In this document: positions 4,869-63,923 of the stretch, in pieces
Layout of the letters: every line of letters begins with the position of its first letter
How positions within the stretch are numbered: position 1 is the stretch's first letter
NCBI GenBank assembly: GCA_963921795.1
Contig: OY997644.1
Coordinates: 2,658,254 to 2,722,253 of the forward strand
DNA: 64,000 bases
From: Nannobrachium achirus
Lineage: Eukaryota; Chordata; Actinopteri; Myctophiformes; Myctophidae
Direction: 5' to 3'
Notes under the pieces: generated by a model
Seen by the model: only the letters and a program-made list of their open reading frames with translations
The model's database searches: none
What the model was told of the DNA's origin: nothing
Made by a program: the position numbers and the translations under genes

Positions 4869-7800
4869 GTAAGAGTTTCTCCTTGGCATGTTGCCTAGTA
4901 GTGCAGTGGTTCTCAACCTTTTCAGGCCGCGACCCCCAAAATAATCACATTTTAACTGGAGACCCCCCCAACCTGACAAGCACTGAGTTGAGGCATTACA
5001 TTGTGTATAACACGGTTCCATTGTGAAAATAGCTGATCTACAACACGAGGCGTTGGCGAGGCGTTGTGAGCATGTAGATCAGCTATTTTCACACTTTCTG
5101 CCTCTAATGTTTGACAATTTGGCCAATGTTTCATTTGTCATTTTAGAGGTATTGAAAAGTCCTTAAATTGTCACAGCAGATACCCTCTATACACTTAAAC
5201 TTTATGTTGGTGTGTTTACTGTTGAGAGAGAAAACAATGTTTCACATTAGGTTAATCATCTGGGGACCCCCCACAATAATTTGGGGACCCCCCTGGGGGT
5301 CCCGGCCCACAGGTTGAGAACCACTGGCCTAGTGCAGTGGTTCTCAAACTTTGAAATTTGAAGGTGTCCGCTTAACTTTTTTCGTTCCATTTGTACACTC
5401 TAAGTTATTATGGTCCTTGTTCTTGAAATTAAAAAAGTTTGAGAACCACAGGTATAGTAATTGTATAGCAGATGTCAGAAGTCCTCATACCAGCTCTGAC
5501 AGTGTGATAAAAACCTGTTCCCGGAAACGGTTCCAAATGTGATGCAACCGATTCCTGGTTACTCAATGTTGGATCCGAATGTTGGTTCGTACCGACTCCT
5601 CAGGTTCTGGATCCCATCCCTAGACGAGGTGCGACATCACGTCACAGACGAAACGGCAAACGTCGGAGCCTCACAAAATGATGTACACAGGGACGTTTAT
5701 TGAAACAAAACAAGCGCTCCCCTGGCCGTAACCCAGATTAGATCATATGCTACGGAATACTAAATTATGCAAAGATGAAGCAAGGAAAAAAGTACTACAG
5801 TATAAAGCTCCTTTTTAGGGACATTATGTGGACAGAAAGATTATTGTCATGTACTGTACATTTACTGAACAGAGATGATTTTTCTGAGGATGTAAACAAC
5901 ACTTTGCGAACAGACTTAAAGTGTTCTTTGGATTCAAGAAGCCTGTCCATTGGTACACATTTAACTTCACAAAGCGGTTTGCGGGATTACCTAAGGACAC
6001 ACAGATGTTCTCTGTCCTATCAGATATAGTGGAAGTGTAGTTGATAGTGCCGATTACAGGGTGTCATTGACTAGTGTTGCATGGCTGCCCAACTTGTTGA
6101 CCTACTTGTGCATCTCTACAGGTGACCATCACCCTAAACCAGGGGTGGCCACACTTTTTTTACTTGAGAACTACTTTTAAAATCAACAAGGTTTACCCAT
6201 CAAAAAAAGAATAAAAAAATAAACTATTTTTGTGATGTTTGATAGTTTGTAGGAATATTGCTGAGAGTACTAAGCAGTAATGAACGGGAAGCTCTCTCAA
6301 TAGACTGGGAATTGAGTGATTGAGTATTGCAGCAGGTATTGCTGTATCACCTTCTCTGTAAAACAAGCTTTACTTGAATTGTGCACAAGAGACGGCCCAT
6401 ATAGAATATTGTGGTGAACCTTTACACAAGAGCCACAAAGCAATGCAGGTGGTACAGTAGGCTTCAGCCACACTGTCCTGGATTGCAGAGTACTTCATCA
6501 GCAAGCCTCAGTTTGCAAGACTGTTGTAGAGCTGTGGGCAATTGCACCGAATAGTAGGAACGCCCTAAGACACCATTCTGTCACCTTTCCTGTACCCTTT
6601 ACTAGGGATCATGGGTGATATGACATTTCTGGACGATATAGAAATCTGATATAATAAATGAAGCGTCAGTGTTAGTTTATGCAGGACATGGGAGTCAAGT
6701 CGCTGCAAGATGTAGTCAGATGTCAGTCAGCTCTGTTCTCATACCTCATTATCATACCTGCTGGTCATTAAGTCACATGACTGCCATACGCCAATCAAAG
6801 CTCAATCAGTAGGGAAGGCTCCTTTAAATACGGCTTGCTTTCTCTTCCTATGCTTGGTTTCCGAAGCTTCGGAATCATTCGCTGCTTGCTGCCTCCTCCA
6901 CCCCAGCCTCCACCCTTGCACGATACTGGTATTGGAGCAACACGACTGCTGTCGAAAAGATTACGCTAACTTCGTTCAGAATTTTCATACTCTGGGGTGT
7001 GGTAGCTGGGATGGTACCTTTTCAGTCAATTCCGGAATTTTCGCAAACAGAACAGAGTAGTGGATGGTAGGTGCAATTGTAAAAGTCATGTTTTAAAATT
7101 AAAATGTTTTGTCTTTAGAACCCCCTCCCTGAGAATCTGAGGCTAGCACATTTCGTGCTGTCTTTTAAATCTCTTCTGAAAACACCTGTTTGCTAAGTGT
7201 TTTTCTTAGGTCCATCTGTCTTTAATTAGCACTTCTACTACTGTACCGTATATTGTTTATGCTGTTAATAATGTTGTTTTTATTGCTTGCTTGTCTGCTG
7301 TTTTTAACATGTCTGTAAAGCACTTTGTAACTTTGTTTTGAAAAGCGCTTTACTAAATACATTCATTATCATTGTGGCAAGCAGCCAGGGCAGCGTCACT
7401 AAGGGGAGAAACTAACCCTCTCCACAACACTCTTAAAACATTTAGGCCTAACATTTGTGAATGCTTTAACCAGTGAAAAACAGCAGATATACAAGCTCAC
7501 AGCGCGGCACCGAGTGCCGCGCTGCGAGCTTGTAGATCTGCTATTTTTGAAAAAGTTGTGAAAATGTGTGCAAATCTTTGAATATTATGTATTTTCAAAG
7601 CGAACGTTTGTAACTCAAATTTTGCTTCTGGGTGGTCCCTGGAACTAAATATTTTGAGATGGGGGGGTCCGTGGCCAAATAAATATCAGTTTGGGGGTCC
7701 TTGACATGAAAAGGTTAGAGAACCACTGACATAGTAGAAGTCTCTCAAGAACAGACTAACTGAGCTCCAGTTGAAGTGAAAAGGACCTTTTCTTTGACGA

Positions 7801-63377: not shown

Positions 63378-63923
63378 CAGGGACGTGCTGGGCCCCTGAT
63401 TCAGCCCGGGAAAAAGAGTTGGAGAGGCCCTCATTGCGCGCTATAGAGAGAGATCTCTCTCTATAGCGCTGCTGCTACTCAAAGATTTGTGACAAAGTGG
63501 CAAGCCAGTGGGCCATTTACTGTACATGAGTTATATTTCGTCGTTGTCGGGTGGAAACCTTGTATGTCCAAAATCATTTTAGAAATGATTTAAACTAGTG
63601 AAAACAGCCAATCTACAAGCACACAACGCCTCGCGGTGCGAGGCGTTGTGTGCTTGTAGATCGGCTGTTTTCACTACTTTTGTGCAACGGCCTTGTATGA
63701 TGAAGCAGGGCTTTGCTTTGCGAAAAAAATTATAAATTTGAAACTTGGAGATACAAGGTTTCTGCAGGACAGTGACGATTTACTTTGTTGGCCGCCCAGC
63801 CCCCAAAATGGAACGAAGGCTGACATTTTTTTTTTCTTTTTTCTAATGGCCGGCCTGGACCGACAGGAATGAACCAGCCGTTCGGGAGTTGTCCCGCTTT
63901 TGCCAATGGCCAGCACGTCCCTG
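63378..63923 (+). mobile_element. FamH hAT, copy 3, both ends present
   Basis: Ends CAGGGACGTGCTGGGCCC and GGCCAGCACGTCCCTG are inverted. Contains the 32-base palindrome at 63438-63469, the FamB core and stem-loop 63597-63675. No convincing 8-bp duplication in the flanks. Confidence 0.85.

Follow-up and report, generated by a model that had tools for sequence, protein, structure and literature searches.

How does one and the same stem-loop come to lie inside transposons whose ends are unrelated? This question is raised by a stretch of 64,000 nucleotides of Nannobrachium achirus (Myctophidae; assembly GCA_963921795.1, contig OY997644.1, positions 2,658,254 to 2,722,253), analysed at its full length and called here the window, in which miniature inverted-repeat transposable elements (MITEs) and hAT-like hosts of several kinds (FamA, FamD, FamH and others) share a palindromic hairpin. 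Our analysis supports the conclusion that transposons with unrelated ends contain one homologous stem-loop and that inheritance of whole elements from a common ancestor does not account for this sharing, as the first-pass annotation of the window had argued, since the ends are unrelated, the target duplications differ and the flanks fall to near chance similarity outside the arms. We propose, with a probability of about one half, that the hairpin is a discrete palindromic cassette which would have been grafted into unrelated non-autonomous families, amplified by these hosts and kept up by fold-back template switching.

Abundance and structure of the stem-loop

The 19-base arm pattern AAAATAGCMGATCTACAAG (at most 3 mismatches in 19) has 70 matches on the two strands of the window, against 0.02 expected from 100 dinucleotide shuffles of it (largest count 1). 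These matches were read as 40 sites between 5026 and 63671, namely 30 pairs of facing arms and 10 lone arms, which agrees with the figure of about 40 given by the first-pass annotation; the inner stems that it quoted for the individual families are present in the window as well. A genome-wide scan found 156,842 exact matches (78,552 + 78,290) to the 22-mer AAAATAGCMGATCTACAAGCTC in the 1.66-Gb assembly (564 contigs), and none genome-wide to the reversed pattern used as control. In 20 unselected 10-kb stretches (a single one per contig, C1-C20, all at 5.0 Mb of the contig), 113 arms with at most 4 mismatches were counted, against 2 for the reversed pattern, and 17 of the 20 contain at least one. 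Extrapolation gives an order of 0.9 million arms genome-wide, which is only approximate, as the stretches were all taken at 5.0 Mb and their counts range from 0 to 18. Viral and prokaryote collections scanned for exact arms yielded 6 and 17, respectively; these were taken as chance matches, since no facing arm, judged by its exact 8-base core, lies within 110 bases of any of them. Two local arrangements of the arms were seen on contig C1: exact arms recur every ~8 kb (7.7-9.5) in C1:2317914-2366894, and a hairpin-bearing element is repeated in C1:26710-34578 (L024-L028) at 98-99.7% identity over 836-901 bases, with a spacing of 2-3 kb.

In total about 360 kb of this one genome were read. The count of 113 arms, the tile and repeat proximity counts and the comparison of arm and flank decay are based on the window and/or the 20 unselected stretches. 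The flank-cluster scores, edge profile, hairpin lengths, stem pairing, edge repeats, stem variants and arm presence within families come from a larger set, which adds loci L024-L053 and is biased to intact arms because these loci were picked by an exact arm match.

The core module is a stem-loop of 71 nt, composed of a 34-bp stem and a 3-nt loop, and 58 of 93 paired hairpins have exactly this length. Folding of five examples as single strands with DNA parameters gives -38 to -52 kcal/mol (z -14 to -19). The outer arm is conserved in sequence and the inner 12 bases are more variable, mostly still paired. An Rfam scan of the window returned 32 matches at E<=1, of which none reaches its gathering score; the best microRNA-precursor match on a hairpin (RF03843) has 49.7 bits against a gathering score of 98. 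Near a FamA hairpin, at a distance of about 350 bases, L036:604-760 consists of tandemly repeated 25-base units that all contain the arm core AGCTTGTAGATCTGCT; this minisatellite apparently grew out of a hairpin arm.

Host elements and independent contexts

Termini and target duplications were checked for 20 window copies (Table 1). Perfect 8-bp duplications flank five copies of four host types, and a CCCAAAC host has a duplication matching at seven of eight positions. TTAA was found on both sides of 4 of the 7 FamA copies tried and with FamA only, and FamH has ATAT on both sides. Two GGGTTCCCACGG copies have 4-bp matches only (GTGT, GTAT); neither a 4-bp nor an 8-bp duplication was found for two CAGGGACG copies or the FamD copy at 4904, and nothing for the CCCCAAT copy at 17083. 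The CAGGGGTCTTC host can be classed as a hAT-derived MITE on its 8-bp duplication together with CAG..CTG ends as in a hAT-transposase element, the other hosts being assigned by their ends and duplications only.

FamH, a MITE of ~265 bp, has the hairpin roughly in its middle and is found whole inside CCCCAAT, CCCAAAC and CAGGGACG hosts (six alignments of 259-270 bp spanning FamH, with shorter pieces besides). Hosts with the ends CAGGGTTCCCCAAT, CAGGGGTTCCCAAAC and CAGGGACG must thus be counted as one hairpin context because all of them carry a nested FamH. The first-pass annotation had claimed at least eight unrelated host families: the unrelated ends and the different duplications stand, but three of the hosts named share this nested element, and the window appears to hold about six independent contexts, namely FamA, FamH, FamD, CAGGGGTCTTC, TGTCGAC and ACTTAAG (lone arms such as that at 34858 aside). 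At least two further contexts with two or more copies were found outside the window (the L024 and L061/L069 types), and others were met one to three times (L070/L072/L066, L055/L064/L060, L052 and L065), some of which may be interrelated. FamA itself reads as a composite element: its core is found with TTAA ends and beside CAGGGGCG- or CAGGGGTGTCGC-type sequence (flank clusters 5, 11, 13, 16 and 31), and it has a CAGTGGTTCTC end in its middle.

The edges of the shared module are sharp. Among eight contexts, grouped by hand and aligned at the arm edge, agreement is 0.76-1.0 inside the arm and falls to 0.38, 0.30, 0.30 and 0.27 in successive 3-nt bins outside it. Among the flank clusters, 29 of 561 pairs score above the 99% level of a reversed-sequence null (about 6 expected), and 20 of the 29 lie inside one group. 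Beyond the common module, most contexts lengthen the palindrome outward with family-specific bases: the inverted match of a hairpin's own flanks is 6.0/10 against 3.3 across the eight contexts (p=0.0002), and 4.27/8 against 2.48 in cross-context comparisons for 15 hand-picked representatives (p=5e-5).

Presence within families and absence from a hAT relative

Flank matches that reach the hairpin edge have the arm in 215 of 230 cases (for example 17/17, 12/12, 13/13 and 14/16; smaller flank clusters are lower, e.g. 7/10 and 4/6), and of the 15 arm-less matches most either retain a remnant such as GCTATTTT or are cut short. When the count is restricted to the window and the 20 stretches, arm loss is seen in 2 of 108; for this count, as for decay, flank consensuses were built from the larger set and matches short of the hairpin edge were excluded. 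Genome-wide, 47 hairpin-less junctions compare with 22,065 filled left junctions for FamH, and 57 with 10,516 for FamD, where the filled patterns test one junction and the hairpin-less patterns require both flanks. The hairpin-less copies vary in form and mostly look like deletions, and their commonest forms (16/47 for FamH, TTTAAACTACTTTTG, with a CTA repeat; 23/57 for FamD, GGTTCTATTTTCACAAT, with a CTATT repeat) would fit deletion between short direct repeats. Because such copies are rare and mostly deletion-like, FamH and FamD were probably founded with the hairpin already present. Some of them could nevertheless be ancestral empty sites, as TTTAAACTACTTTTG also fits a single TA target.

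A profile search of the genome with PF05699 gave 150 scored matches among 1,653 candidates. One hAT (C13:57531198-57535075) was read whole: it has the duplication TTCTATAG on both sides, CAGGGGTCTTCAAC termini and an open frame of 609 amino acids, and contains no arm at up to 5 mismatches, the sole arm-like match with 3 mismatches falling outside the element. With hairpin MITEs such as that at 58476-58934 it has only ~70-bp ends in common. The hairpin is therefore no remnant of this hAT.

Stem pairing and maintenance

Compensatory changes in the stem, which the first-pass annotation had suggested looking for, were found. In 17 hand-picked hairpins of various contexts, several pairs of which come from one family (FamA, FamD, L024/L059, hAT), 91.3% of stem cells are paired against 28-44% in slid controls, and 11 of 34 stem pairs have changed on both sides, against 4.4 in shuffles, none of 500 being as high. 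The same hairpins contain 21 further pair types, against 16.8 in shuffles (7/500 as high). Stem position 9 is mismatched in 4 of 8 family consensuses (GATCGGC in one arm and GATCTGC in the other), so that the inherited unit appears to be the whole hairpin with its polarity rather than a single arm.

The loop can also be inverted. The collinear GGGTTCCCACGG hosts have GTT at 37637 and AAC at 41834, and another collinear pair has ACC at 59503 and GGT at 63601, all three bases differing in same-strand alignments. These two host pairs carry the observation; automated orientation was unreliable where flank types are alike (FamH 44918 was miscalled), and the FamA result was not used.

We suggest on these grounds (compensatory pairs, two inverted loops and family-specific extensions) that the stem would be kept paired mainly by fold-back of the nascent strand, which copies one arm from the other and thereby would also lengthen the palindrome outward and sometimes invert the loop. 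Template switching in replication has been reported to create and maintain hairpins (PMC8794818, accessible text).

Proposed origin of the shared hairpin

According to the proposed mechanism, a near-perfect palindrome of 71 nt, often with a few family-specific pairs added, would have been grafted about once per lineage, before the expansion of the family, and each family would then have amplified it by ordinary transposition with borrowed transposase. Grafting would most likely be the same type of event as upkeep: gap or break repair at the birth of a new miniature element might switch into a hairpin, a structure very frequent in the genome and able to provide homology in either orientation. 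The hairpin-driven template switching put forward in the first-pass annotation is thus retained in part, as the extensions, compensatory pairs and inverted loops concern maintenance more than transfer. We hold with moderate confidence that template switching maintains the stem; that it causes the grafting is a weak suggestion. The transfer step is inferred, as the ~360 kb read contained neither a grafting event in progress nor a donor flank or never-inserted family.

Several other points weigh against this proposal. Template switching alone does not predict edges this sharp, and compensatory change is also expected from selection on structure; its counts are moreover inflated by the presence, among the 17 hairpins, of several members of one family. 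In FamA and the ACTTAAG context the palindrome is only weakly extended. Nine of the 29 high-scoring flank pairs cross groups, with a top score of 129 against a null maximum of 123, and the grouping of flank clusters was derived partly from the same scores. A single autonomous-looking element, the C13 hAT, was read, and its autonomy is judged from its sequence. Finally, rare donor contexts may be missed in one genome.

Alternative explanations

A first group of alternatives makes the hairpin itself the moving unit. At its boldest, it would be a hyperparasite, a gene-less palindromic DNA of ~71-77 nt that moves as a unit between unrelated transposon families and rides with them to several hundred thousand copies, possibly targeting TA or using a fold-back single-strand route; we regard this as a speculative idea of fairly low probability. 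Similarly, it is unlikely that the stem-loop is a mobile palindromic element which some undefined enzyme inserts into transposons, possibly at TA or short palindromes. Such mobility would agree with the behaviour of the hairpin as a discrete unit with sharp edges, and mobile palindromes have been described in yeast mitochondria (PMC4478555, accessible text). TA stands on both sides of GTGAAAATAGC...GCTATTTTCAC in L064:6699, L055:3962, L060:8068, L061:5784, L052:834 and FamH. This could be a TA duplication, for which the single TA of the commonest hairpin-less FamH form would be the empty site, or equally a 2-base extension of the palindrome, since TA is self-complementary; in contexts D, TGTCGAC and hAT the extension is inverted, not direct. 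The short duplications around hairpin copies, another check proposed by the first-pass annotation, gave no general signal: direct repeats at the hairpin edges measure 1.4 nt in own pairs against 1.17 nt in mismatched pairs (15 hand-picked contexts, with the L052 and L064 edges 1-2 bases off through mutated arms, so that TA was not scored fairly there). Convincing empty sites were not found among the mostly deletion-like hairpin-less copies. Among the 93 paired hairpins, 13 have no flank relative, about half of which are by eye degraded members of known families, and no copy outside a repeat was established. The suggestion in the first-pass annotation that the stem-loop is itself mobile therefore receives no direct support.

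It is also doubtful that the hairpin spread because it benefits its host, in transposition or in escape from silencing (as a DNA structure in cis or a source of small RNA), through selection among new elements. The hairpin is retained by almost every sampled member of the families that have it, its length is mostly constant and its changes preserve pairing; the authors of the coral study discussed below suggested a similar advantage (PMC2872659, accessible text). Furthermore, among 54 repeats for which 3 or more other copies are available, 21 have an arm no more than 400 bases away in at least 60% of their copies, whereas by position alone ~30% of sampled 150-base tiles lie that close to one. 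On the other hand, the three commonest repeats in the sample are mostly without the hairpin, a hAT with matching ends lacks it, and no Rfam family reaches its gathering score on a hairpin. Inserted copies show no constraint: in copies chosen by their flanks, the non-CpG mismatch to the consensus is 189/2,627 (7.2%) in arms and 239/4,464 (5.4%) in flanks, with arms ranging from 0 to 26% by cluster. Arms thus age like their surroundings or faster, selection on individual inserted copies is not supported, and constraint on such copies does not explain the agreement of arms between families. An apparent strong conservation of the arms (0.7-5.4% against 6.3-19.2% in flanks) was rejected as an ascertainment artefact, because the copies had been selected by their arms and the difference vanished once they were chosen by flanks. 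The replicative or expression advantage proposed in the first-pass annotation is accordingly left to transposing source copies, where it is possible.

Common descent from a single old hairpin MITE, its ends repeatedly replaced by nesting or terminal swaps, is very unlikely as a general explanation. It is partly true, as whole FamH lies inside three hATs, part of FamD lies inside GGGTTCCCACGG hosts and FamA cores occur with TTAA and with other ends. Descent would nevertheless leave similar flanks, and the eight contexts drop to near chance similarity a few bases beyond the arm; within families the arms decay as fast as the flanks.

Palindromes are recombinogenic and these hairpins abundant, but a concerted evolution of old independent hairpins, homogenised by gene conversion between families, is largely refuted and hardly credible, as diagnostic stem variants are confined to their own families (8/8 for H-type, 8/9 for D-type, 6/6 for L024-type and 26/31 for A-type; H and D types strictly so among assigned hairpins, and the one apparent exception, an A-type variant in one of two TGTCGAC hairpins, being a product of the one-mismatch rule), and ongoing conversion between families is thus not seen.

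Relation to known systems

As far as the accessible text of their description goes (PMC2872659), the CMITEs of Acropora corals are the closest precedent, of which the present elements would be a variant. Their families have different terminal repeats around a conserved internal region of 75 bp that is more alike than the termini; the origin of this region is unknown, it does not, for the most part, obviously resemble the related autonomous element, and tandem arrays occur. An internal region common to families with different ends is found here too, and it is likewise missing from the autonomous-looking relative, for the one hAT read. CMITEs, of which A. millepora has ~1,600, end like piggyBac elements and are flanked by TTAA duplications; here, by contrast, the hosts are hAT-like, TTAA- or ATAT-flanked (8-bp duplications in four host types, ATAT at FamH), the common piece is a hairpin and it is far more abundant. 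The words palindrome, hairpin, stem and secondary structure do not occur in the main text of that paper as accessible.

The palindromic GC clusters of yeast mitochondria also spread, merge and shuffle as short palindromes (main type 42 nt, with a putative AG target duplication; PMC4478555, accessible text), whereas the hairpin described here is nuclear, lies inside DNA transposons and has no general duplication signal. Template-switch mutation of quasi-palindromes gives compensatory double changes and creates stems without sequential selection (PMC8794818, accessible text); it is a mechanism of mutation and not a transferable module.

The repetitive extragenic palindromes (REP) of bacteria are similarly abundant, short and spread without genes of their own, being mobilised by a dedicated Y1 transposase, and differ in being bacterial.

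In the open-access literature searched, we found no description of this element, by arm sequence or by internal hairpins shared among MITEs. It points to non-autonomous transposons of different superfamilies evolving in a modular way, a single hairpin being the part they have in common. Families with and without the hairpin, together with a complete hairpin-less hAT partner, offer a natural test between replication errors and selection during transposition. The question of the origin and spread of such an internal region is also left open for the coral CMITEs.

Hairpin sites and other features of the window

Table 1. Stem-loops, lone arms and their host elements in the window (positions in the window)
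Position	Host or feature	Strand	Hairpin and remarks
5026..5089	stem-loop in FamD		host 4904-5326, ends CAGTGGTTCTCAACC; duplication not found
7437..8034	FamA, TTAA both sides		stem-loops 7477-7547, 7910-7980
8556..8618	stem-loop in degraded ACTTAAGTACTG-type repeat
14975..15555	FamA (TTAA)		stem-loops 15028-15098, 15445-15515
15876..16436	FamA (TTAA)		stem-loops 15932-16003, 16353-16396 (shortened)
17083..17479	CAGGGTTCCCCAAT hAT-like host, nested FamH		lone arm 17318-17336; duplication not found
17946..18519	CAGGGGTTCCCAAAC hAT-like host, 7/8 duplication		nested FamH 18052-18317; stem-loop 18137-18207
18879..20225	CAGTGTTATTTTGTCGAC hAT-like host, 8-bp duplication GTAAGAAA		stem-loop 19913-19983, stem extends to 19902-19994
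21279..21297	lone arm in FamH fragment	+
21542..22089	FamA (TTAA not confirmed)		stem-loops 21588-21658, 21972-22028
24829..25391	FamA (TTAA)		stem-loops 24869-24939, 25281-25351
27489..27531	collapsed stem-loop, degraded FamA-like remnant
28648..29255	FamA (TTAA not confirmed)		stem-loops 28711-28781, 29140-29210
31228..31457	CAGGGGTTCCCAAAC host fragment, part of FamH		lone arm 31248-31266
31913..32440	FamA, truncated		stem-loop 31975-32045, lone arm 32402-32420
34858..34876	lone arm	-	no close relatives in sample; right flank like L060:8068-8086 by eye
37511..37973	GGGTTCCCACGG host, part of FamD		stem-loop 37637-37707, loop GTT
38416..39410	FamA split by insert		stem-loop 38473-38543, lone arm 39334-39352
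41615..42171	GGGTTCCCACGG host, part of FamD		stem-loop 41834-41904, loop AAC; perfect 40-bp stem 41828-41910
43833..44228	FamD, 8-bp duplication ATCTACAG		lone arm 43968-43986 (hairpin partly deleted)
44734..45189	CAGGGTTCCCCAAT hAT-like host, 8-bp duplication GTCTAAGC, nested FamH		stem-loop 44918-44988
48763..48781	lone degraded arm	-
49868..50440	FamA (TTAA not confirmed)		stem-loops 49912-49982, 50340-50377 (collapsed)
50607..50864	FamH MITE standing alone, CGTCGTTGTCGGG...CAGTGACG, ATAT both sides		stem-loop 50687-50757
52243..52733	CAGGGTTCCCCAAT hAT-like host, 8-bp duplication GAGTAGAG, nested FamH		stem-loop 52437-52507
53691..53752	stem-loop in rearranged FamD-like remnant
54296..54591	CAGGGACG-type host fragment, part of FamH		lone arm 54515-54533
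58476..58934	CAGGGGTCTTCAAC hAT-like host, 8-bp duplication GCCTAAAC		stem-loop 58630-58689; ~70-bp end matches hairpin-less hAT C13:57531198-57535075
59248..59814	CAGGGACGCGCTGG host with FamH, duplication not found		stem-loop 59503-59573, loop ACC
61460..61609	FamH fragment		lone arm 61482-61500
63379..63925	CAGGGACGTGCTGG host with FamH, duplication not found		stem-loop 63601-63671, loop GGT

The hairpin MITEs crowd the introns and surroundings of a gene which we take to be glce (D-glucuronyl C5-epimerase), as the exons at 4360-4870, 18622-18871, 31553-31845 and 33318-34049 read like it. Two other near-perfect palindromes, at 669-801 (57-base arms at 98%) and 40566-40653 (with weak matches to microRNA models, below gathering score), are unrelated to the 71-nt module. 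A 3' hairpin of the UnaL2 long interspersed nuclear element lies at 61904-61958 (-), with 50.6 bits, slightly under the gathering score of 55. Finally, the region 54709-57040, with inverted stretches of 354 and 295 bases at 99.4-99.7% identity and coding-looking sequence between them, is a putative recent inverted duplication.

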